A DNA stretch of 64,000 nt from Hexactinellida sp. DTS-2022 (taxonomy: Eukaryota; Porifera; Hexactinellida), in assembly GCA_028753945.1 (NCBI GenBank), contig JAPNXP010000011.1, forward strand, positions 1,674,001 through 1,738,000. Direction: 5' to 3'. Shown piece after piece: positions 968-64,000 of this stretch (positions are counted from its first letter, which is position 1; each line of letters begins with the position of its first letter). The position numbers and the translations under genes are program-made. The notes beneath the pieces are model-generated. The model was not told the DNA's origin and did no database searches. It was given only the letters and a program-made list of their open reading frames with translations.

Positions 968-1366
968 TTGCGTTCATTTTATGATCATCTTGTCAAACTT
1001 TCCTGAAATATAACCCTGAAACTTTCATCTCGATACAACCCACATTATTTATATTTATAAGTAGTAATCAAAAGTGTTATATGATTCACTTAAGAGCCTT
1101 ATGACTAAAATTAATAGATTGTTGTTATCAAACCATAAATTTAGGAATTATCTGATAAATAAATACATAAATTCTATTAATTTATCATTTCTCTTCGAAA
1201 TCTCATTCTACATCATGATATCACATTGTAAATACCTGATTATGCCACTGACCTATCTAATTCATGTTTCTTTTCTCTCTTATTTCATATGTTTAGAGTT
1301 AATTAATCTAAATATTGTACAACATTTTATTTTCTAGCCTCATTTCTTCAATTCTCATATTTATTG

Positions 1367-2059
1367 ATGCCTAACAAATGTTCTGTTGTTGATTGCAACT
1401 CTGGTTACAAGGATGGCCCTAATAACCCTCGCTACAAATTTCCTCAGGACGAGCAATTGGCTGTTAAATGGTTGCGTTTTCTTAACAGGCCTGCTGATTA
1501 TGTTATTACCGATAACTCTTTCATTTGCTCACTTCACTTTGATAATAAATTTCTGAAAATTACTCACCATAGTTTCACAAGATTGAACTACAATCTCAAT
1601 CCAATTCCTACTATCCATCCACTTTCTATCCCTAAAAGTCAGGCAATTATCCCTTCTAATTCACGTCCACCACCAAAAGACCGGGTCTTCCAACCAGACC
1701 AAATTTCCATCTACGAGGAAAAGTTCAAAATTCAAAAATTTCAGGATATAATTGATTTCCTCGAAAAAGCTCCTGAGTATGCAAGTTTTAAACTGCATAT
1801 TGAAGATAGTTTCGTAACTGCGTACCATCTTGTTATTAGCTCTGGGTTAGCTGGTGTAAAAGAATGCATTACTATCTACACAGACTTCCAGGTTAAACTT
1901 AGCTATGAAGGTTCGCTTATTCCTCTTCCAAGTTACATCCTAAACTCTACTGACCATAAGATAACTCATTTGGATGCTCTTGAGAATTTACCAAATTATT
2001 GTCGAAATTTTGACTCCAAGTATCATGTTGATGTTATAAAGGAGCTAATTCAACTTTGA
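1367..2059 (+). CDS. THAP-domain N-terminal part of P1 transposase
   Basis: The first ATG (1367) opens a frame beginning MPNKCSVVDC. A THAP zinc finger fills about residues 1-85: the Cys pair in KCSVVDC, the conserved Trp in KWLRF, the Cys-His pair in ICSLHF, and a PIPTIHP segment like the family's AVPTIF end motif. This domain binds the transposon ends. The rest, to residue 230, looks like a linker with a short helical stretch. The frame ends at a TGA (2057-2059), but the next exon-like stretch is in the same frame. The TGA may lie in an intron whose acceptor is TTTCAG ending at 2067. If unspliced, this product would be a DNA-binding fragment without the catalytic core; Drosophila P makes a repressor by intron retention. 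Whether that happens here is inference. Confidence 0.85.
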   Translation: MPNKCSVVDCNSGYKDGPNNPRYKFPQDEQLAVKWLRFLNRPADYVITDNSFICSLHFDNKFLKITHHSFTRLNYNLNPIPTIHPLSIPKSQAIIPSNSRPPPKDRVFQPDQISIYEEKFKIQKFQDIIDFLEKAPEYASFKLHIEDSFVTAYHLVISSGLAGVKECITIYTDFQVKLSYEGSLIPLPSYILNSTDHKITHLDALENLPNYCRNFDSKYHVDVIKELIQL

Positions 2060-3916
2060 TATTTCAGCCCTCGTGGTAGACCGAAGTACTCATCACAGGT
2101 TCTGCGTTTCTCTCTATTGCTAAGATATACTTCTAATTCTGCTTATAGTTTCCTTAAGAAATACATTCCTCTCCCGAGCAACTCACTACTCCGAAAGCTT
2201 AAATCCCCTACTATAGACAACTGTCAAGCACTTCAAGTTCTACGTGACCAAAACTTGATTGGAAATGATATTGCAGTATTACTTGATGAAATGCATCTCC
2301 AATCTCAAGTTCAATTCGATGGCAATACACTCATTGGTTGCAATGCTGGTTTGGAAATGTACAGCAGTATATTATGTTTTATGGTAATATCCCTCCGAAA
2401 GTCTCTCCCATTTGTGATCTCCGCAGTACCTCTTGTAAAAAACTCTGGTGATATTGTTTACGACAACTTGGATACATGTTTGCGATTACTCACACAATCT
2501 CGGTTTAGAGTTAGAGCGATCATATCGGATAACCACACAACGAATGTGAAGGCTTACAATCGTCTCTTAACTAATTACAAATTTCAGGACAAAGATTACA
2601 AAATCAAGAACCACTACATTTCTAATGATAATATTTATCTTCTCTTTGACACATGCCACTTGATCAAGAACATTAGAAATAATCTGGTAGCCAAGAAATT
2701 TTTTGATATTCCATCTTTCGAATTTTCCTCTGTAAATCTAAATATTTCCTTTCAAGCAGGATTTGTTCGGTGGTCTCATCTCCATACTATTCACGAAAGA
2801 GATTTAATCTTATCCGCACACCTCCGTGCTGCTTATAAAATCAATTCATCTGTAATTCATCCTGGAAATAATAAGCAATCTGTTCCCTTAGCCCTTGCTC
2901 TTTTCCACGAATCAACTATAAGTGCACTTCGCTTATACCTTCCTGAGGATGCGGTTACTGCTGCATTTTTTAATCTAATTCGTATTTGGTGGCTCTCCGT
3001 CAATTCGAAGGAACGCTTTCACCCTCTTTTCCAAGGAAATGCTTTAGTTCCAAATGATTCTAAAGCAGAATTCCTTTGTTCCTTTAGTAATTGGCTAATT
3101 ACCTGGCAAGCCTCGGGAAGATTTGGTTTGTCTCAGCAAACATTTAAAGCCTTAATACAGACCAACTATGCCATCTCTGAATTATTTCTCGACTTACTCA
3201 CAGAAGGGTATGATTATGTGTTAACTGGACGTTTACAAAGTGATCCACTTGAGAGGAGGTTTTCACATTATCGGCAAATGAGTGGAGGGCGCTTTTTGGT
3301 CAGCTTGCAAGAAGTGATCAGATCAGAATCAATAATTAAGTTGAAATCTCTCCTGAAGCGAAATATTGACATCTCTTCTTTATCAACTCCGAATCAATCA
3401 ATTTCATCCATCAACGACTTTGCAAGGAGCATGCTCATAAATGATTGCGATCATTTACAACTGACAGAGGATTCACAGCAAGAAGTAGTTTACATAGCAG
3501 GGTATATAACATTGTCGCTATCAGAACATATCCAGTGTCCTGTCTGTTTGAGTTCCTTGAACAATAATCTTGTTTCATCTGAGTATGTCAGCAACTTAAA
3601 CCAAGGTGGTTTGACTCTACCCTGTACTTCATTACAACACTATGTGTTGAGTGCCTTCTGCTTACTTGAAGTTTCGGAAAGAGAAATTAGAAGTTCCAGC
3701 TTTCCCTGGAAATCTCTAGCGCTGGCACTACTCAGTATCGCAACAGTTGAGTGGGATTCTACCTTTGCTTGCAGTTGTCATTCAGAGAAGTCAAAAGAAT
3801 TAGTCAACAAGATCATTTCAAACATCTACTTTAACAACTTAAGAAAACAGGTCTCTGAAACTCGACGTAAGGACCAAGTGACACCTTTAAAATCAAATAA
3901 ACGACAGAAATTGTAA
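2060..3916 (+). CDS. P-type transposase catalytic part of P1
   Basis: From 2060 to the TAA at 3914-3916 this frame is open and in phase with the THAP part. The recognisable protein begins at PRGRPKYSS, right after a TTTCAG acceptor ending at 2067, so that is the likely exon start; no ATG suits a separate gene. Landmarks in order are LLDEMHL (first catalytic Asp), IISDNHTTN (second Asp), and DPLERRFSHYRQMSGG (the Glu with the family's closing motif). The order fits the RNase H fold with inserted GTP-binding region of P and THAP9 transposases. Near the C-terminus are paired Cys (CPVCLSS) and a basic tail. At roughly 600 residues it is about full length. I see no disruption except the TGA upstream. 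Confidence 0.88.
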   Translation, partial: YFSPRGRPKYSSQVLRFSLLLRYTSNSAYSFLKKYIPLPSNSLLRKLKSPTIDNCQALQVLRDQNLIGNDIAVLLDEMHLQSQVQFDGNTLIGCNAGLEMYSSILCFMVISLRKSLPFVISAVPLVKNSGDIVYDNLDTCLRLLTQSRFRVRAIISDNHTTNVKAYNRLLTNYKFQDKDYKIKNHYISNDNIYLLFDTCHLIKNIRNNLVAKKFFDIPSFEFSSVNLNISFQAGFVRWSHLHTIHERDLILSAHLRAAYKINSSVIHPGNNKQSVPLALALFHESTISALRLYLPEDAVTAAFFNLIRIWWLSVNSKERFHPLFQGNALVPNDSKAEFLCSFSNWLITWQASGRFGLSQQTFKALIQTNYAISELFLDLLTEGYDYVLTGRLQSDPLERRFSHYRQMSGGRFLVSLQEVIRSESIIKLKSLLKRNIDISSLSTPNQSISSINDFARSMLINDCDHLQLTEDSQQEVVYIAGYITLSLSEHIQCPVCLSSLNNNLVSSEYVSNLNQGGLTLPCTSLQHYVLSAFCLLEVSEREIRSSSFPWKSLALALLSIATVEWDSTFACSCHSEKSKELVNKIISNIYFNNLRKQVSETRRKDQVTPLKSNKRQKL

Positions 3917-3947
3917 AACCTAAGTTTACACAAACATTACTATATTA

Positions 3948-4510
3948 CACTAACCAGCCAAAAGTATTTGAACAATTGGAGTTTTAATGCAAACTGCAAT
4001 AATCGTCTGGTACTTATTAGAGGCTGTTTAAACTACTCAGAAATGACCTTAAATATCTTGCTAAAGTTATGAATTATATAATATTTTGAATTCACGTGAT
4101 TTAGTTAATATCCATGAAGTGGCATAAGTGTATCTGCCACGTGCCACTTGTGGCACAAGTGGCACAAATGGGAATGTGGCTGTATCCCAGTAGAAAATAA
4201 ACGTAATCATTTGAAATTATGCTCCTAGAGTAATTCAACCATGTGGAATTCAATTCTGCAATCAGAACATCTATATTCTCATTACATCTTGATCACCAGA
4301 AATTATATATTTAATTAGCTAATTATATAGTTAATGAGTTTAACACCTCGATATAAATGTAAATTCAAAAAATTTGCCATTTTATTATATATCACATATC
4401 GTTTTATGTAAATAGAAGTGTTGATGCATCTACCAATGCTATTTTGCTGATAGAAGCTTGAATGTATAAATACAAATTATTGCTGTTCAAATACTTTTGG
4501 CCGGCTAGTG
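3948..4510 (+). mobile_element. TA-target MITE, CACTRACCRGCC family, copy 1 (inside P1)
   Basis: The ends read CACTAACCAGCCAAAAGTAT and its inverse, flanked by TA on both sides. The 563-bp element has no coding. Similar copies lie at 4839-5391 and 25508-26078. TA target and CA-start ends suggest mobilisation by a Tc1/mariner-type transposase. It lies between the P1 stop codon and P1's right repeat, so it entered P1. Confidence 0.88.
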
Positions 4511-4609
4511 TATATTTCCGTTTATTATATAGTGATCCTTCGTATATGCCTTATTTGTAGTTAATACCAAAAATATGTTCATTCATAGCGAAGAGTTTAT
4601 GTATGCTTA

Positions 4610-4833
4610 TTACCATATATGGTATGAATTTTTGAATGCGTCATTGTGGTTAAAATTAATGTGGAACTATTCTCAAAAGTAGTCTAGATGTTTCCGCCAC
4701 ATATGATAACCTAAATATAGTTGAACATGTAACGATAGCTGTATGTATCCATGATCAAACAGAATGTAATCAATGGCCTGGAAATTATTTGGGCAATTCT
4801 ATGCTTAGCAAGCCGTAGTATATAGTAAGCCAT
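4610..4833 (-). repeat. Right terminal inverted repeat of P1
   Basis: Reverse complement of 743-967 with few differences. The outer edge ...GTAAGCCAT is followed by the 8-bp duplication GACTACAC. Confidence 0.9.
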
Positions 4834-6931: not shown

Positions 6932-8640
6932 TTAACACTCATTTAAATAGTGCATCAATTCGTTTATTTCTGTTCGACATATTGGACAGAGCATGTTCTC
7001 TTCAATAAAATGCCGGCCACAATCTCGACATAGATTAGCGTGACTACAAGGAATGAGAGCGTATGTTCCTGTTTTGGATGACAACAAATCATACAAGTAT
7101 TGTGGAAAGTATCATCATCACATCACAGTTTGACTCATCTAAAATTTCTGTGTTAATATCTGCAAAATGTCCAAAAACATGTTTTCCACAGCCACAAATT
7201 GTTGCTGAGACAGCAGCGAGGTATTGAGTAATTGAATATGTTCCTCCTTGTATTTTTTCTTTACATGTATTTCTGCGGGCAGCATTTTCCAATGTTTGTC
7301 TCTTTGGTTTTATTGTTAACTGAAGGCCTTACTCTAATCTTTGGTATTCCAATTCAAAATCAAGTATGACCTTTTTCAAATCAGATAAAAACTTCCATAT
7401 ATTTGGATTATGAACTGTGATGACGGATTTCATAGTTTTATGAAAGGTCTCTGCACCATTGTTTGTTGCATTCTATGCAGAAATACTGAAAGTTCCTTTT
7501 GTCCTATGATCCATGTCTTTTTATAATATACCTTCAACTTTTTGATCAGCGGATCCTCTATTTCATTACTATAAAATTTTTCCTCTTCTAATATGGAGAA
7601 GCATAGGCGCAAAGCACGGTGGTGCAGGTGGTGCAAGTGCACCACCGGCACAGCGATACAAGTGCGGTGGTGCAAGGTGGGGCTAACTCCACCTGTACTT
7701 TGTATTGTGGTGCACAACTGGCACTTTTGGCTAGAGGTCAAAAGTTTTCCCCTATGTGGAGAAGGCCCCTAAATTTCACTTTCAGGTAATAGTGGCAGTG
7801 CCATTAGTTTCATAAGCCAATTCGCCAATACTTGATCAGTCTTACACCATAATGCAAGGCCTAAGAGTTGCGTTTTCTTCCAGATTGCTTGTGTAAAATG
7901 GAACCAACAGCCTATAATATTTATCTCAGGGAAATAACGGGAGAATACATTGCGAGGTGCTCTTTCAAAATCGCAAACAGCAATCTTAGGCGAAAATTCA
8001 AGAATTATCTCGCGTATTTTCATCAAAATAATAGCATATAAGTCCTCTGTTTTAGTTTGCATTAATACGTGAATGGCTGGAATACAATGTCCGGTAAACG
8101 ATATGAAGATAGTAAAGAGCTGATAAAAAAATTGACGGTACCGTGTAAAAAGTTGCATCAAATTGGATTTGATCAGCAACTTTCAATTTCATCAGCATAA
8201 AGTCCGAGGCAAATATAACTGCATATGCTCCACCACTGTTAACGCTCCCCTTGCACAAATGAACAAATGGCGAATCTGGTATTAACTGACAAAAATGCCC
8301 AGGGTTCAGAGGGAGAGGTGGGAGTAATTTTCTTCTAAGTTTGCACATACTACTTTCCATCTGTCTAAACGTTACTGAAATGTTAGCGGGATCTTCACGA
8401 CAGGTTTCATTGAACACATGTCTTAGTCTCTCTGAAGAAGTTTCAGCAGCCCGTTTCAGTTTATTTTTGAATACGAATTCGTTTTGTCTATAAGCATTCT
8501 CATCATGGTCATGATCATGAGTTAATAATAATGTATTAGATTCATGGTCTATTTTAGCAAATCCTTTGCACCCTGGGTTTTTATAAAGTGTACCCCTCAC
8601 TGCTCACGTAAGTGAAATTTTTGGAAGCTCTGACTTTTAG
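6932..8640 (-). pseudogene. Decayed MULE transposase with FLYWCH-like start and RING-finger end
   Basis: Read on the minus strand, the pieces appear in the order expected for a Mutator-like transposase. A Cys/His-rich N-terminal part ends GCKGFAKID...THDHDHD, like a FLYWCH finger. Then come IQFDATFYTVP (first Asp), VCDFERAPRNVFSRYFPE (second Asp) followed by IIGCWFHFTQAIWKK, and the C-terminal NATNNGAETFHKTMKS block. The last part, IPCSHANLCRDC...CPICRTE, with an upstream CMICC, is a C3HC4 RING finger close to the TAA at 6932-6934. Frame changes occur around 8060-8180, near 7450 and around 7090, and an in-frame stop precedes NATNN. A 155-bp MITE interrupts it at 7602-7756. It is a dead copy. 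The GTG near 8600 is not a real start; the true N-terminus is upstream or lost. Confidence 0.85.
7602..7756. mobile_element. 155-bp MITE with perfect 8-bp target duplication
   Basis: TGGAGAAG occurs directly on both sides (7594-7601 and 7757-7764). The ends are CATAGG... and ...CCTATG. The interior repeats GGTGGTGCA and its inverse. An 8-bp duplication points to a hAT- or P-type mobiliser. It sits within the MULE transposase fossil and is therefore younger than that insertion. Confidence 0.85.
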
Positions 8641-11290: not shown

Positions 11291-13860
11291 AGAGACTGCT
11301 GCGTTTGCTAATCCAGATCCCAAAATATACACGGGGACGTCTCCAAGAGCAGTGCAAGCGTAATATACTTACCTTGCGAAAAGATACGCCAAACAAGAGA
11401 AAGGCCAGGATACGAGGTATCGTTTCTCGGCAGGGCTCACGTTTGCTATATGAGACTCCCAAGAAGAGAGTTGCACGTTGCTTTGATCTTCAAGAGCGAA
11501 CGGCCTCTCGGCTGAGTAAGGAAACGGACGAGAAGCGCGAAGTCCGTCTTATTGATAAGCGAGAGCGAAAGGCTGAGTTGTATGCTAAGAGGGTTAAATC
11601 CCGGATTGCTGTAAACTTTGCCAGATCCAAAACTGCCTCTGAAGTTCCAGATTGTATTGTACAAAAATATTCAGTTGGCAGTTTGACTTTCAGCTACTCT
11701 GTTTGTCTGGTAAAGTTTTTATGAAAGTGAAAAGCTATCGGGTAGTACTAAGTTGCGTTACAAGTTGACCCGCGTGGAAGAACGTTTCGAGATTAAATCA
11801 GAGCATACAACTCCGCTCTAGCGTTTGCTTCTCTTGGAGTGAACTTAGACAAGGGGCTGGCTAATGCTAAGGATGGGGTGTACACATTCCGTATAAACGG
11901 AACAGTGCACCATTTGATCGGCCAGTTGATGTCTCGAAAAGGCGAGTCACCCTGCTTTGCGGAGATCTATATACATGATGGTACTCCTGAGGCTGAGCTT
12001 GAGACCGTGAGCGGCATTTAGGAGAGGCTTCTCTCCCAGAGTTGAATGGTTACAATTTATGCTGCATGAGTATAACCCATATGTCTCTTTCTTCAGATAG
12101 GGAGTAGATCTGATGCGAGAGCAGGGGGACGCTGACGTGAGAATGATTATCCGAGCAGAAGGTGCTCTGGATCCTCGACGTTACAATGCGCCTACAAAAC
12201 CTGAAGTAGCTGTTATCATGCCAGGTGATGGCTATGGAGAGGAGGTGGCCAGCAGAGATATAGTGTTGCACGCGGACAGGCGGTCTTCAGCGTATAATAA
12301 GGACTCACCGCGCTTATGCTGAAATGCATTATGTCTTGATCTTCCCTTTAGGCAGGTGAAAATCCTCACGCTCGAGGTAAGGGTTGTGTCACCGCTATGT
12401 ATGGAGTACTATTCATACCGTCTGATGATCAGGAGCAAATAAAGTCGGCTGAATCTCTGTGGTAGACTCTTTCATCAGTACACTGTTGATATGTATGCCA
12501 ATATAGAACAGCAGAGGCTAAATTACATCAAGATGAACCAGCAGCAGATTCGAGTGGATCTTTACTGTGGGTTGTCTGATGCAGTTGCTGCAGGTGATAC
12601 AGACTCAAGAGAACTGGGACGTAAGGTTGTCCTTCCTTCTTCCTACACTGGTAGTCTTCGACAAATGTTTGAGTTGTACCAGGATGCGATGAGTATAGTC
12701 AGGAAATATGGTAAGCCAGACTTATTCATTACATTTACGTGTAATCCGAAGTGGGAGGAGATTACGTCTGCCCTCCTATTAAATCAGAAAACGAGCGATC
12801 GTCCTGATTTGATAGTACGAGTCTTCAGATTGAAGTTGCGAGAATTACTTCGGCATTTTTTGATAAAGCATGTACTGGGCAAACCACTAGCGCATGTGTA
12901 TACCATTGAATTGCAGAAGCGTGGTCTGCCTCACGCTCACATTCTTATTATACTCACTGACCGGGATAAGCCTAGAGACCCGCTTGAGTGTGATCGAATT
13001 ATTTGTGCTGAGCTTCCGGACCCTAACCTGCAACCTCGACTGCACTCTATCGTTAGACGCTGTGTGATGCATGGTCCATGTGGTGTAGCAAAAAAGAGTG
13101 CTCCTTGCTTAAGGGACGGGAAGTGCTCTAAGAAAAACCCAAAGGCATTTTCAGCAATCACACAACTGCTGAAGATGGCTACCCCAATTATCGTCGTAGA
13201 GACAATGACCGTGCTGTTAATGTGGGCGGGCGAAGATTGATAATAGGTGGGTAGTACCATACAATCCCTTTCTGTCATTGAAATTTAATGCTCATATTAA
13301 CGTGAAAATTTGTAGTACAGTGACTTCTGTCAAGTACCTGTACAGGTACGTGTACAAGGGACACTATAGAGCAGTTGTTGAATTCAAATCAGGCAGTGAG
13401 GCTGTGGAAACGGCTGACACCAAGCGTGTTGATGAATTCAAATCGGGCAGTGAGACTGTGAAAACTGCGGACACCAAGCGTGTTGATGAATTCAAATAAG
13501 GTAGTGAGACTGTGAAAACTGCTGACACAAAGCGTGTTGATGAAATATCAAACTATTTGGAGGGTCGGTATGTTTCTGCTACAGAGGCGTGTACCGTATC
13601 TTTGCATATGATCTCCATGCTAATCTGCCGCATGTGTTGAGGTTAGCTGTAAATCTGGAGAATCAGCAGCCGGTATATTTCGCTGAGGAGACTGAATACA
13701 CGGATATATTGAGTAAACAGCGGCACACAACTCTGACTGGATGTTTTGGCAAACCAGACCTTCCATAGCGCTAGGGATATAACTTACACAAATTTTCCTG
13801 ATATATTTGTGTGGGATAAATCTGAGTGTAATTGAAAACCAAGGGTAAAGAGGCATGGTA
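11291..13860 (+). pseudogene. Decayed Helitron: N-terminal and Rep regions
   Basis: Fragments run in the order of a Helitron protein. A basic Arg/Lys-rich N-terminus lies at 11305-11720. INGTVHHLIGQLM...ETYIHD-like text (actually AEIYIHDGTPEAEL) follows near 11900-12010. DVRMIIRAEGALDPRRYNAP and PEVAVIMPGDGYGEEVASRD lie around 12130-12265. The Rep domain frame is at 12491-13240, with PDLFITFTCNPKWEEI and KRGLPHAHILIIL (the His-x-His nickase motif). Then come NRWVVPYNPFLSLKF, KYLYRYVYKGH and EGRYVSATEA, ending about FPDIFVWDKS near 13830. The helicase half is absent, so the copy is truncated as well as broken by several frame changes. Helitrons move by rolling-circle replication; this copy cannot supply the protein. 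Confidence 0.9.
13381..13542 (+). repeat. 54-bp tandem triplication inside the Helitron Rep reading frame
   Basis: Three consecutive 54-bp units begin AATTCAAAT at 13381, 13435 and 13489. Each encodes 18 residues ending in TADTKRVDE. The length keeps the frame, though the third unit has gained a TAA. Most likely a local expansion after or shortly before inactivation. Confidence 0.9.
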
Positions 13861-34189: not shown

Positions 34190-35560
34190 GCAATTGAAAA
34201 TTAATAACATTTAGTAATTGCAGCTCTACCATTGCAACTTTAGCCAATTACGAAGACATACGTAAGGTTTCCATTGTTGCTAAAGAAATAGCAGCTAATG
34301 GGGATTCAGTAATCTAAAACATAAAGTTATTATACTTGGAGTGAGTAGAAGAATATGCACACAATTTCGCTAAACATTGATCACAGAAAATATTATATTT
34401 CCTTCATATAGCAAGATAGGAGATCTGAGACATATTGATCTCTCGGCTTTCTATACTTTTGTATCCAGACCCAAAACATGAATTTGGTGCATACACTTCG
34501 TATTTCCTTAAAATTCAACAAACCTTGGAGAGAATATTATCTACTGTAGATCTTCCAGATAGCGAAGAATTTCGTTTAGAATTGGTGATGACCTAGAAGG
34601 GTCTGGTTGCCATAATATCTATAACTAGCAACACACCAACACAAGTATAAAGAATTTGATTATATTTTGCTCAAAGCCAATATCCATCTATACAAAATTG
34701 AACACGGTTGTTTGGAGAAATAACACTCCAAATTCTCCATTTTCACAGAGACCCATTTTGTTTGTGCTGCGAAGGAATGTACAGATAATTCCGAAATTGA
34801 TGGAACATATGATCAATGCACAAACAGCAAAGCTCGGAACTGGTGTATCTCACGATAGAGGTCTAGTTGTTGTCGATATTATTCGATCCAAGTTCGACGG
34901 AAAGATGGCTGCAATCCTTTCTGGTTCAGGAGGTGCTAGTTGTAAAATGTGCACTGTCACACATAAAAATTTGAAAGATAAAGTCTTTTTGTTGTTTTCT
35001 GGATTCCTCATCAACAGAACCATTACTGACGCTATACAGATATATCCTTTGCACTTCAAAGGCTTGACAGACATACCTATTTCGGCATGACAGACATACC
35101 TATTTCTATCATAGACATAAATTCAGCATCTCCACTACACTCACATACTTGCATATTTCGGTGGTATAATCTGCTCGTGTATCACCTCCATATCGAAAAG
35201 TATAGCTGGTCTCCAACTTCCCCCGCGATCAAACAGTCGATGAAATTTCTTCAAACTCGAATTCAAGAAAAGATTGGCTTGAAAGTTGACCAACCAGGTA
35301 GAAAAACCTCTACAGGAAACGTTGCTCGATGAAGATTTTCTGACGTAACAAGTTTTTTAGAGTGTGTACTATCGGAAATTGCAATTATCCATCGACAATC
35401 TTGGTTTATAACCACTTTTAATCCAACATATGTAACAACCGATAATTATATAAATATGACTGCATGAGAAAACTTACTGTCGAACTGTGGGACTGCGAAC
35501 AATTAACCGAAAAAGACAATACTTTATTCAACTTCTTGTACGCTTCGGACCAATTCGTAT
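34190..35560 (+). pseudogene. RAG1/Transib-like transposase fossil, copy 1
   Basis: Pieces in the order of the RAG1/Transib catalytic core can be read on the plus strand. HEFGAYTSYFLKIQQTLERI leads to DDLEGSGCHNIYN, the block that holds the first catalytic Asp (compare DGMGDVSEKHGSG in vertebrate RAG1). Then come NNTPNSPFSQRPILFVLRRN (RAG1 has a PNSELCCKPLCL stretch here), a Cys pair in GGASCKMCT, SIIDINSASPLHSHTCIFRW, and VDQPGRKTSTGNVAR (RAG1: MRMNGNFARKLM; Transib: TNDGNTARR). In this copy the second residue of the first block is Asp rather than Gly. Frame changes and stops separate the pieces. The C-terminal part with the last acidic residue is unclear. It shares all blocks with the fossil at 61725-63552. 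No RAG2-like Kelch repeats were seen. Confidence 0.8.
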
Positions 35561-43767: not shown

Positions 43768-46422
43768 CATAGCCTACTCTATATATGGCCTGACAGTAAC
43801 CTAGAAAATGTGGACCAAGGATGAAGGAGAAGATGGTAATATTTATCCAACCACAATATTTAATTTCAAAAATAATAATCATAATCAACCACATTAATTA
43901 GAAATATTCTTGAAATATATACAATTATTGATCAGATTTTATTCCAAACTCTTCTATTGACGCATATTCACATCCTTTTATTTCGCTTTGGTATTTTATT
44001 CATATTAGCTTCTATTCATGCCTAACTCGTGTTCTGTCCCCGGTTGCAAGAGCAATTACAACCCAGATGACCATGTTCCTGTGTTCAAGATGCCTCAAAA
44101 TCCACCAACCCTGAATCATGCCTGGACATGCGCTCTTCGTCGCAAGGATATCGGTCACCTGAAGGTGGTCTATGTATGTATCGACCATTTTCAGAAAGAA
44201 GACATAGATTACACTTTCCAAGTCCCAAAAGGAGATAGTACTTTTACTGAAGTACCGCGGGCGAAGCCAAAGCTGAAAGAAGGCGCTGTACCAAGTATAC
44301 TAACTCGCTCCCCAGGCAGCCCAGCATATTACTCATCCAAACCTAACAAACGGAATCGCTTCCCATACGATGCAAAAGAGGAAGAATTGATGAACCATAC
44401 GATGCAAAAGAGGAAGAATTGATGAACCAAACACTACAACTCAGCTTGAGACCCGAGAGTCAAGAGAAAGAGAAGTTTGTGGTAACGCTCCACAGGACTT
44501 GAAAGATAAGTTAAGCTTGATTTCTTTACCTTATAGTTGGTTGGTGTGGTTCCGTAATGAAAGCAACATAACGTTTGTTCTCGCTAAATGGTAGAAAAAC
44601 TATCTCAGTAGATTTGTACCTTGAAATCAATGCTTATTTATCTACCTCAGCCTATTTTAATGGACAGAGTATATCCGTTTCCATTGCTGCAATTAGTGAC
44701 ATCCGAGAAATTTAATCTGTTTTGCAGTAACTTGCCCTTAAGTTCGGTTGTGTCAATTATATAATTCAGAAAGAACAAGTTTATCCAAGTTAGCTCCTCA
44801 TTTGACTATGGAGTCATGTTTTCCGTCTAGCATAGAGCTTCAAAATGTCAAACTGGTTTTGAAAGTCGTTAACGAATTAACAATATCTGCGCTAACTATC
44901 CAGAATATAGAAATAACACTTCGGAGTTTGTCGATACCCACCCTTCTTACTGTTTGGAAATTATTCAACGTTAACACACCATTTAAAGGAATACGATTGA
45001 ACGATAATTTCTCTAGACTTTTGACTTTTAATGACGAGCGATTTCTATTTTTGACTCGTGTAGTTTTGGTTAGATGCTTGGCAAACTTTACCAGAAAAAA
45101 TTGGCAAACTGAGTAAACAAACATACATCAGTTTTAGACATGCTTGTATTGCCTTACCACAAATTACCAACCATTTGACTCAACCTTGTGGCTTTACATA
45201 GTATGTGTTGTCCTCCCTTCTACAGATTGATCCCTTGGAACACAATTTCGGTCTATACCGTATGATGTCGGGTTCTAATTATCACATCTCCTATCTTCAA
45301 ATCCTTGAACCGAGCATCGACTTGAACTTTCTAGCATATTAAACATGTTTACTGACCAACAAGACACTTCCTTTCAATCTATTCAGTCATTTATTAAGTC
45401 ATTTTCTTGTCCGTATTCCACTACTGATGGTGAATTCAATTTGTAGTCATTTCTTGATGAGATTCATGACCTATCAACAATAGATTGTGGTTTACAGTTG
45501 CTTCAACCATTACCCTTTATTGCAGGCTATACTGTCCATCAGTACCTGAAACAAACAAAACCGTGTCATGTCTGTCTACATATGCTAACAGTTGATAAAG
45601 AATTTCCTCTTGATTTAGACCAGGACTCTCAGTATAAACTTCTGCAGCTAACGGAACGTGGCGGACTTAAATATCCATCTGAGCCTGTTTTAAATTCCAT
45701 ATTTGTTATATGGAAGACCTTTAGTACCATCGAAAACAATAAAGAGCTGATGGCGAAGCTTGTAAGTGGACCTTCTCGAAAAATACTAGTTGAACTCACG
45801 TTGATGTACATATTTGGAAGATTGCGATAATCGTATCCAAGTATTTGGAAGTCTACTTGTATTAGCTGTGGTGTGTTTAGTTTGAACATCTTATCGAAGC
45901 TCGTCTTTACTGCAGCGAATTGCTTTCTTGCAAACAAAGTCAAGAATTATAACTCGCTGGTTCTTTCAAAAAAGTAAAGAAAGCGTAAATTTAAGAAATT
46001 CGCTTAATTATGTGTCTACTTATTTGTATTTACCATGATTTGTATTACTCTGTTATTCTTATTTCTATTATGTAGTTAAGTGTGTCGTGTGTCACTGCTA
46101 GAGCCAGAGAGAGAAAGAGGAGAGAGGAAAGAAAGCAAATAATTGTGTATTATTACTGTATATTAATATTAGAAATTGTACTGTTTGTGTTTATTATTAT
46201 TATTAAATTATGAAAACCAATCACCGTTGTCATTACAGCTAATACTAATCACGGGCTAGCAGGGCTGAGTTATGTTTACGACCTAGAAAGTTATGTTTAC
46301 GACCTAGAGAGGTATAAAGAACTTAGTAGTTCAATATAGAAAACATTAAAAAATTAAAATTTCCCATCTTCTTGTGCATCCCTGGTACATCTACTGTCAG
46401 GCCATATATAGAGTAGGCTATG
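43768..46422 (+). mobile_element. Second P-type element (P2), internally deleted
   Basis: The ends CATAGCCTACTCTATATATG and its inverse match, extending loosely for about 75 bp. They resemble P1's CATGGCTTACTATATAC. It encodes a THAP domain and degraded transposase pieces on the plus strand. The flanks GGATGACA and CCTTATCG do not match, so the target duplication is lost or the edge has moved. Confidence 0.8.
44018..45976 (+). pseudogene. P2 THAP-transposase, decayed
   Basis: ATG 44018 opens MPNSCSVPGCKSNY, a THAP finger with the Cys pair, a conserved Trp (AWTCALRRKD) and a CIDHF Cys-His pair, ending EVPRAKPK. A 32-bp tandem duplication around 44370-44433 (ATGCAAAAGAGGAAGAATTG twice) shifts the frame. 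The catalytic region is shorter than in P1: the first two Asp blocks are not visible. The last block is present as LQIDPLEHNFGLYRMMSGSN near 45222-45290. The C-terminal part FIAGYTVHQYLKQTKPCHVC matches P1's VVYIAGYITLSLSEHIQCPVC. It diverged from P1 long before either copy inserted. Confidence 0.82.
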
Positions 46423-60502: not shown

Positions 60503-61202
60503 CTCTATGACATCTCAGTTCCAAATAAATCTTGATTATGAATCACAGCAGCTGACTAGTGCAAATAAACATAGGACAGACATTCCATTAATACTGCATT
60601 TAGTCCAATTGAGCTAACTAAACCTGATGAAATTTATTCACATCAGAAAACCCAGTATTTCCAGAACAAATATATGTGACATGTTAAACTTCACAATTAA
60701 GTACTCACGGATCCTGTTCAATTGCTAATGATGGCCCTTGTTATCCTGGAATTGGTTACAAAGATTTATTTTCCCCTCTTGATAAGAAAAACCGGTGTTT
60801 TCATTCAGATTGGTATTCTAAACAAATTACCTAAGGATTCCAATACACAAATAGAATAGTTAATCAATTCACCAAAACTAATGTCTAGTTTTTCCATCCC
60901 TGTAGGCCTTTTGATAATAAAGCAAACAAGAGTTATCACAGTGTGGCAAAATGGCGATTATGGGGTAATAGGTATTCACGTTGATGGTACATATAGTAAT
61001 GTTGCATTAGTACAGATATTAAATCGACTACGTAGATTCCAAAAATTACATTATTTTTTTCTAACTCTACTAGAAATGTGTGAAAATGAAATCATAAATT
61101 ATTAATTTTAAAAATTCTAATATGGGTCATTAATAATTAATATTTATCACTCTATATTTTATGCTAATTAGTAAATACATCATATATAATATGCGCATAC
61201 TT
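60503..61202. other. No gene recognised
   Basis: The frame at 60881-61105 (plus) shows no motif. Otherwise A+T-rich. Confidence 0.4.
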
Positions 61203-61620
61203 TGGTAGGTTTGGTAGAGCCATGGCTCTACCAATAATTTACAGAGAATTACTATTTTATAGCAAACATAATGAAAATCCTCCCAAAAGATGACTCATAA
61301 ACATAGGCCCGAACCTACCTATCTCTATCTCGTGGCTACGCCCATGTGTATGACATTGTAATAGCTGCGTCACCATAGGTTAATATTTTATGGAAACATG
61401 AACAAAATTAATATGCCTAGGAGGCTAATACAAAGCAACTAAATAGTACGAATTGATTAAACATTTATTAATAACTTTCTATTAGTGTATTATTGTATAA
61501 TGTATCTTGTTCGCAGTTTGTAGGCTCCTTATATACTTTTGTTGGTCTGAAACGATTTTCGACAAGTACAGGGTCGCTATTACACAATATACGGACCAAT
61601 ATATCACTATATCACGCACA
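61203..61620 (+). repeat. Unclassified dispersed repeat, copy 2
   Basis: It matches 8951-9375 from GGTAGAGCCATGGCTCTACC to ACAATATACGGAC. It lies just beyond the C-terminal end of the RAG1/Transib-like fossil and may have replaced the last part of it. Confidence 0.7.
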
Positions 61621-61724
61621 TTCTCGGTAAATTACGTCTTGCGAGCTAAGTTTTCCCGATATCGACTTACATACTTGTTACAGCCTTCTAAACACTCTTC
61701 TAAAATATTTTAAAAGCGTAGCCA

Positions 61725-63552
61725 CTATTATAAGAATGAATTATTTGGAAAGAATGGGAAAGTAATTTATGCAAGGAAGGTATTATGCTCGTCCATGCAA
61801 ACTTAATAATAATGAATTGATAAGTTCCTTTGCACAAATCCTCTAATTTAACACAGTATATCTGAACGCCGCTGTTGACCTATCTCAGAATTACTGATAG
61901 ATTGGTTTGAATTCTTTCTAGTGTTGGTTTATGAACTGGACCAATTGAACAAGTAGCCGATTTCAGGAACTCTCTCTTGTTCATGAAACAGTCACGAGCA
62001 ACATTCCCTGTAGTCGAAATACCTCCATGGCTAGAAGGAATGCCAACGCTGATATTACATCTTTCTTCAATGATTGATCTATTGCGTCTCATTGATGCTT
62101 GGACCTCAGAGTTTGAAGGCGACCATTGTGTGCGACCTGCATCCAGATGGTATATTAGGAGCATAAACCACTTGAAAACACAAAGATATGCATGTAAGGG
62201 AGAAGCTGCTATAATGTTGAAGTTGGAAGTTGATTGGTGAGTTATACCAACACGTTGATGAGAAGGTAATTTCTAAAATTGTTCTTCATTAACCTCACTG
62301 AAAATTTCATGAGCATCTTTGATGAATCTGTTAATGGGGAATCCAGATTCAACCCATTCTAAGCTTTTAATTTGGGACTCAGTCGCAGTACATAGATGAC
62401 ATGAAGCCCCTCCTGTCCATCCAATAGGCCAGCCATCTTAGTATCAAAAAGGGAACGAATTAATTTAACATTAATCTTGCCGCCAGCTAGATTAAACCTA
62501 TCATCCATGATATGATCAGTTTAAGGATTTATCAGAGACTCCATTATAAATTTGACATTGCCATAATCTTCTTTCAGAACTATTAAAGCAACTGGTCTGA
62601 AAGAGAAAGTCGATTTGGGAAACTTATTAAATAATATTTGGTTATGATTTGTATCTGTGATGGTTAGGACTTTAAATCCAAACAAGATAAAAAAATTAGT
62701 GGATAAATCTGGATTTGAAATGATTTGATTGTAGATGCGGTGAGTACCTGAACCATCCAGTCCATCTGATATTGTGACATTAAGAGGATATTGTGTATTT
62801 GAAATGGGATCTAAATTTTCAAGGGTACTTTGAATGGTGAGAGAAAGAATTGAATGATAAGATATAGCAATTCCAAATGAGAGGCCTTCATGGTTTTGAA
62901 CTATCCTCATCTCATCTGCTAAGGAGATTTTTCTCTACGAAATAGCGAGACTACTTTGTATGGTGGTAATGAAACATTTTCCCCTGTCAAGATCCGCTTT
63001 AGCTCTGAACATTTAGTTGAACCTATTTCTAAGATGTCTAACAAATGGGCTGACTTCCGAAATTTTAGTGACAACTATATTGAATGAGCCCTTTTCAATT
63101 ACTCTTTAAATACTCTTGAGATATCTCTATCATATGTCTCATTGGAAACCAATTTTAAAGTTAGTGCAACTAGTTTTTTTGGTCAATTAGTTCTCGTTCG
63201 GCTATAAAGTTAATATGTTCCAAAAGTACCTTAAGTCGTTGCCGTGCAGTTTTAGGTTGCAAACAAAAATATGTTTTTTAGAATCCGTTGCAATGTGTTT
63301 GGGAAAAACCTTAAGACCAGGAAGTGTCACATTTGAAAAGCCATCTGAATCTGATCCGGAATAATCTGAAATTCGTTTCTTTCGAGGTTGTTTTACTGGT
63401 AAAGGAATAGAATGAAATATCATATTTTCCCAAGTTTCTAAATCATTTCTTTTTCGGGAGGATTCCCTAGATTTTTGGAGTGAGTAGTACTTGTAACGTA
63501 TTACTTCGCTATCCTCCTCCAAAAGATGCCGCTTTTCAATTAGAGTTTGCAT
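61725..63552 (-). pseudogene. RAG1/Transib-like transposase fossil, copy 2
   Basis: The minus strand carries the more complete copy. A charged N-terminal part (QPRKKRISDYSGSDSD) is followed by HEGLSFGIAISYHSILSL. Then VTISDGLDGSGTHRIYNQ holds the first catalytic Asp, and KSTFSFRPVALIVLKEDY follows. After a break come GGASCHLCTATES (Cys pair), FNIIAASPLHAYLCVFKWFM and GGISTTGNVARDCF. Near 61740-61800 lies FAWTSIIPSLHKLLSHSF, matching the FHKTLAH block of vertebrate RAG1. The order and spacing follow the RAG1/Transib core. The final acidic residue of the active site is not seen; an unrelated repeat occupies that position. Several stops and frame changes show the copy is dead. TIRs with a CACNNTG-type heptamer were not located. 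Confidence 0.82.
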
Positions 63553-64000
63553 AGATTGAGTGATCCCTGCCGTGAGCTACATAATTATCATACGCGTCTT
63601 TATTAGAAATAAATTCACTCATACTGTGAAATATGAAGAGCTAGTACAGATTATAAATGTCATTATTCAAGCAAAATCTATTAATATTATTTTAAATCAG
63701 TATTCATTAACAATCTCAAGGGAAATTAGTAAATTCAAATAAATGATTAAAATGGGGAAAATTTAAAAATCGTCAGATATTTTTACCCACTATTTAGATA
63801 CTTTACCTCGAAAATATATTTGGGCGCCTTTGGGCGGGCGTAGAAATAATTTAAATCTGAACCTAGATAGATAGACAATATAAAAACGCAAACAATTCAG
63901 CTCGCAGTTGTTTGCATCCTAAGATCGGATAGGTGGAATATTTGCCACAATGCAAGAAGTTATTTATAAAATAGCCAGAAAAGAAATTCATAAAAAATAA
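63553..64000. other. Window edge, no gene recognised
   Basis: A+T-rich. It could hold the 5' flank or end of the RAG1/Transib-like element, but no terminal repeat was recognised. Confidence 0.35.

Follow-up and report, generated by a model that had tools for sequence, protein, structure and literature searches.

Does a broken reading frame on a hexactinellid contig descend from the transposases related to RAG1, and if so, to what kind of element does it belong? The window, the whole stretch of DNA analyzed here, comprises 64,000 nucleotides of contig JAPNXP010000011.1 from Hexactinellida sp. DTS-2022 (G+C = 34.6%). A preliminary description had marked positions 61725–63552 as a RAG1/Transib-like transposase fossil with most of the core blocks. 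The best explanation, which we give a probability of about 0.85, is a complete but inactive cut-and-paste transposon with a single gene, a member of the Transib/RAG1 superfamily and most likely of the Transib Subgroup I type.

Coding remains and limits of the window element

The blocks first named are real, lie on the minus strand and follow one another in the order claimed. DGLDGSGTH and FSFRPVALIV share one frame (ORF 62521–62934), and SCHLC, ASPLHAYLCVFKW, TTGNVARDCF and SLHKLLSH fall in another (62413–61703, two in-frame stops). The coding region is interrupted by frameshifts and stops, and the contexts of all three catalytic residues are kept, spread over several pieces (Table 1). In tblastn, 13 long ORFs of this genome align piecewise with the region between 63543 and 61474, with best combined E-values from 2e-32 (L021) to 3e-121 (L025); the resemblance of the blocks is not due to chance. 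Searched alone, 0/6 window pieces matched the Pfam RAG1 model, so the family link rests on the intact relatives described below.

The coding remains extend from about 63576 to 61474 and the element from 60937 to 64093, making the span originally proposed too short. On the 3′ side, homology among copies breaks at window position 60937; the 5′ end lies 93 bp beyond the window edge and was read in the adjoining contig stretch (L051). CACAGTG is directed inward at both ends and a 5-bp target duplication (TSD), ATAAC, is present on both sides, in agreement with the CACNNTG-type TIRs and 5-bp duplications anticipated from the coding blocks. In the 5′ repeat, outside the window, GGTAATAGG begins 12 nt after the heptamer.

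Table 1. Features of the window element and other transposon-related regions of the window (window coordinates)
Feature	Position	Strand	Basis
Inactivated Transib-superfamily transposon, 3157 bp	60937..64000 in window; 5′ end 64093	-	
5′ TSD partner of window element	64094–64098, outside window		
N-terminal part, broken transposase frame	63202..63576	-	tblastn
Degraded piece, end of NBD-like domain and start of next domain, 2 in-frame stops	62931..63173	-	
Core piece, first two catalytic Asp equivalents (DGLDGSG, LFDTKMAG), 2 in-frame stops	62398..62955	-	
Zinc-binding insertion, TTGNVAR block and HKLLSH block, 2 in-frame stops	61703..62413	-	
Third catalytic residue context (EECLEGCNKYVSRYRE, Glu kept), 1 in-frame stop	61602..61700	-	
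C-terminal coding remnant	61474..61605	-	
3′ TIR: CACAGTG heptamer, 20 nt, then GGTAATAGG	60937..60976	-	
3′ TSD, ATAAC in element orientation	60932..60936	.	
Second broken Transib/RAG1-like copy, at least 2 frames	34332–35422	+	no Pfam match of its own
THAP domain ORF, then P-element-like transposase ORF	1307–3916	+	Pfam THAP 6.6e-11, TNP-like RNase H 2e-10
MULE transposase domain	7769–8182	-	Pfam 1e-10
Helitron-like N-terminal domain	12443–13240	+	Pfam 1.3e-59
THAP domain	44009–44422	+	Pfam 2.1e-13

The host genome (112,398,167 bases in 18 contigs) contains at least 68 matches to the window region (40 of 144 candidates scored). Among the matches listed, eight places besides the region itself align with it for 1,400 bases or more, at 82–91% identity. 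Seventeen places match the left 330–367 query bases; in 12 of them the part from base 2301 onward directly abuts this segment, and a short deletion derivative has therefore multiplied. The deletion junction (window 63534/61600) was found in 6 of 14 short loci examined.

The second broken copy in the window is closest to the L027/L029 families, with about 40–58% protein identity. The genome searches also located rRNA operons on two contigs (L054 and L055), with small-subunit matches of 1052 bits over the whole model in L055 versus 1509 bits in the 5′-cut L054; the L055 gene is perhaps a shortened copy.

Intact relatives and superfamily assignment

At least 33 places in the genome matched the Pfam RAG1 model when 68 of 76 candidates were scored, and 15 of these exceeded the cut-off. 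Sixteen loci were taken whole and 13 were compared, with L023, L024 and L034 (split frames) left out of the comparison. Stop-to-stop frames in the 13 measure 532–757 codons, among them the open frames of sister families at about 700–757 codons, and the one protein encoded by each intact relative is a RAG1-core-like DDE transposase of about 710–740 aa. Protein identity is 41–69% between families over aligned parts and 98–100% between copies within a family. Locus L021, where a deeply divergent Transib-like ORF of 698 codons occupies 2716–4809 (+), is the outlier at 29–34% identity to the other ORFs. In L036, a Tc5/DDE_1-type transposase ORF (1953–2852, +; Pfam DDE_1 5.1e-37) adjoins an intact Transib copy.

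Complete copies, which the preliminary description had proposed to look for in the host genome, are present, including seven in one sister family. This L022-type family (98–100% DNA identity, query counted) has frames of 711–713 codons at three places and four different TSDs at four places, and has moved recently; the window family, with about 90% identity among its copies, is older. Since the genome carries sister families with uninterrupted ORFs and near-identical copies, the term "fossil" suits the window copy and is wrong for the group.

Assignment to the superfamily was examined at the levels of profile, fold and catalytic residues. The curated Pfam RAG1 cut-off is passed by 6/7 transposase ORFs, and the seventh, L030, scores 24.4 bits against a cut-off of 25, 0.6 bit short. 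A single ORF searched against the PDB matched HzTransib (8.9e-22), amphioxus RAG1L (9e-8) and RAG1 (9.3e-6), and a nine-ORF profile gave the same order: 6e-53 for HzTransib, 8.5e-27 for amphioxus BbRAG1L and 4.7e-19 at best for RAG1. An AlphaFold model of L033 (pLDDT 76.4, pTM 0.68) retrieved HzTransib (2.2e-20), mouse RAG1 (3.2e-19) and BbRAGL (3.7e-15) with Foldseek, and a P-element transposase stood 50th among the best 50 matches listed (8.8e-5). Equivalents of D, D and E, the catalytic residues of RAG1, are conserved in 9/9 aligned ORFs. At the position aligned to RAG1 Arg848, five ORFs have Thr, as does HzTransib, and four have Ser. In NCBIfam, one of two ORFs searched gave two weak matches, both to unrelated families, and the other gave no match.

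Pfam matches of the intact relatives, the PDB profile search and the fold thus agree on the RAG1/Transib superfamily, as first proposed. The silence of the Pfam RAG1 model on the window pieces alone is what an unrelated transposase with RAG1-like words arisen by chance would lead one to expect; set against the concordance of profile, fold, catalytic residues, TIR heptamer and 5-bp TSD, this explanation is already refuted and retains next to no probability. Pattern matches in prokaryote genomes (43) and viral contigs (35) were considered as relatives, and none was confirmed.

Bipartite ends with unequal spacing

CACAGTG at both ends and exact 5-bp TSDs were established for 12 elements, which represent eight families. 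The end search that supplied 11 of the 12 required CACNNTG and tolerated one TSD mismatch at most, so that ends of this type were selected for. Applied to 16 other loci, it found an end pair in 11 and none in L021, L030, L032, L033 and L036, each of which gave one candidate end, and no more, in a later pattern search. At the 3′ end of L021, GGAAATAGG lies 21 nt beyond CACAGTG; the 5′ end of this locus was not found. The TSD bases flanking the elements are G or C at 27 of 60 positions.

Next to the heptamer, a few bases are shared; the two ends then differ, yet they carry a common second motif. This inner motif is GGTAATAGG in the window family and GGAAATAGG, GGAAGTAGG, GGGAATAG and similar elsewhere, with a weaker version in L028 (7 of 9) that is unlike GGWAATAGG. 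Counted by hand, its distance from the heptamer is 10–11 nt at the 5′ end and 20–21 nt at the 3′ end. Exceptions are the window copy (12/20), whose 5′ end is one base longer than in its relatives L014, L044 and L050, and L031, whose 5′ end lacks 4 nt relative to the sister L035 and has the motif after 7 nt (11 nt in L035). The best shared inner 9-mer has an offset of 9 or 10 in 7/8 families and of 8 in the window copy. Asymmetric bipartite ends are present in 8/8 families with a summed score of 64, a value reached by 0/1000 base shuffles of the 3′ inner part (mean 40.5, maximum 47); the eight spacings are not independent, because the families are related. In most families, a change of the motif at one end is matched at the other, and the motif is therefore predicted to be a bound site. 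A genome scan for the heptamer, 12 nt and GGAAATAGG with up to three mismatches (297+351 hits versus 193+222 for the reversed control) proved too loose and was set aside.

The consensus heptamer of the vertebrate 12/23 RSS is identical to the ends described here, and there too a second motif occurs, at two spacings that differ by about one turn of the helix; the spacing itself differs, 12/23 against mostly 10–11/20–21 (12/20 in the window copy), and the nonamer, given as ACAAAAACC in PMC8289069, is not the inner motif found here. ProtoRAG of amphioxus shares the 5-bp TSD and bipartite asymmetric ends (PMC8289069) and differs in its 27/31 spacing, its inner element GCCATCTTG and its RAG2L gene (PMC8289069, PMC7204232). 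AanRAGL of Aureococcus has a 13-bp element and 4/13-bp spacers followed by a second element (PMC9435367), which by our arithmetic is 10/19 counted from the heptamer, close to 11/20 here; it has RAG1L and RAG2L genes, whereas a single gene is seen here. Within Transib, a few insect elements have a spacing of about 12/23 (PMC8355894), and the TIRs of HzTransib, unlike the unequal ends here, are called symmetric in PMC8289069.

Domain composition and placement

A zinc-binding region that is missing from HzTransib is present in 9/9 ORFs and aligns with RAG1 and RAG1L; from the LCTA cysteines to the LHS block there are 48 residues in L033 versus 13 in HzTransib, and on our reading the region probably holds α11–α12. 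Near the C-terminus, 8/13 ORFs carry a CxxCxxxGH...C zinc motif, one with SH for GH, that nearly matches CTT1 (Cx2Cx3GHx4C), the last gap being x3 or x5; among the 13 ORFs examined, it was not found in L021, L026, L028, L030 and L035. Upstream of the core, a helical stretch resembles the nonamer-binding domain (NBD) of RAG1. A profile of this stretch from eight ORFs (L021 left out) had the RAG1 NBD (3gna, E = 0.0093) as its best natural match in the PDB, with a designed protein ranking above it (0.0069). With hhalign it scored 29.5 against the mouse NBD (maximum of 100 shuffles, 17.2) and 20.0 against the amphioxus NBD* (shuffled maximum 19.1), and most of it lies at pLDDT under 50 in the L033 model. 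NBD homology is thus moderate and proposed tentatively.

The TTGNVAR block, which the preliminary description had placed between the RAG1 and Transib versions as a sign of an intermediate or separate branch, reads TGN-I/V-A/S-R in 9/9 ORFs, in keeping with that wording. In a tree of 12 sequences and 396 columns, eight ORFs join at 99.8/100, and the branching of L021, HzTransib and RAG1 is weakly supported (8.5/55). Tao et al. (2022, PMC9435367) described Subgroup I Transib as having asymmetric TIRs, CTT1, the ZnB α11–α12 region and an NBD, and as possible intermediates between Transib and RAG1L. Most features tested here match that subgroup as described there, and in this sense support the suggested intermediate branch. 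The likeness, judged by description, covers the single transposase gene, the asymmetric bipartite TIRs and the retained zinc-binding region; it may extend to the NBD-like domain and, in several families, to the near-match of CTT1, whereas in some families no zinc motif was found. All 12 paired-end elements here have CACAGTG at both ends and mostly 10–11/20–21 spacing, in which they may differ from the published subgroup. The families thus most likely belong to a kind already in print, to which they add a member with a clean 12/23-like layout.

HzTransib (PDB 6pqn), of Subgroup II, is likewise a RAG1-core DDE transposase without RAG2 and is the best sequence and fold match of the ORFs. A Subgroup II family that happens to have unequal ends is nevertheless unlikely: such ends do occur in some Subgroup II Transibs (PMC9435367), but 9/9 aligned ORFs keep the zinc-binding region said to be lost in that subgroup and 8/13 have the CTT1-like motif.

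The same two features, the C-terminal zinc motif and the zinc-binding region common with RAG1L, would also suit a RAGL transposon, with RAG1-like and RAG2-like genes, that has lost its RAG2L gene. We consider such a history quite improbable, as the ORF cores are 25–30% identical to HzTransib against 21–23% to BbRAG1L and 18–21% to mouse RAG1, and BbRAG1L and RAG1 are 37% identical to each other. The neighbouring RAG2-like gene predicted at the outset also failed to appear: in 7/7 families, one element each, no ORF of more than 135 codons lies outside the transposase, and in 5/7 no flank exceeds 800 bp. On this ORF result, the elements are not RAGL transposons of the kind set out in PMC7204232. 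The two longest ORFs outside the transposase begin with MNNK-type transposase N-termini. In L026 (27–4258) and L035 (539–4040), a separate MNNK-type N-terminus ORF stands upstream of the main ORF, divided from it by inserted sequence, a frameshift or an intron; these two loci may also accommodate a RAG2-like gene whose exons are short. A Pfam RAG2 search of the genome gave no match, which shows little because the control genome was also silent, and a RAG2-like gene may lie elsewhere in the genome.

Proposed mechanism and implications

For the Subgroup I-type transposon that we favor, we propose a transposase dimer whose core would grip the CACAGTG heptamers, cut by nick and hairpin, and integrate at staggered target cuts 5 bp apart. 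The inner motif would be bound by another part of the protein, formed by the NBD-like N-terminal domain and in some families possibly also by the C-terminal zinc knuckle. With the motif some 11 nt away from the heptamer at one end of the element and some 20 nt away at the other, such a complex should favor pairs made up of a short-spacer and a long-spacer end.

No paper on elements of this genome was found in the open-licence literature, searched without the host name. Eight families of one genome combine the RSS heptamer at each end with a conserved unequal spacing; several of these families include intact or recent copies, and no RAG2 was seen. They bear on how the 12/23 rule of V(D)J recombination arose and fit the printed idea that bipartite asymmetric ends are ancestral. 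Tentatively, and with the odds against it, these families could be read as a RAG2-free transposase lineage in a compact genome, in which exact CACAGTG heptamers are combined with a short/long end pairing rule read by the NBD-like domain. If this were true, a 12/23-type rule would be older than RAG2 and than RAGL transposons, about 11/20 would be the ancestral spacing, and there would be many living families in which to test the pairing rule. The eight families offer natural substrates for testing whether relatives of RAG1 alone read unequal ends.
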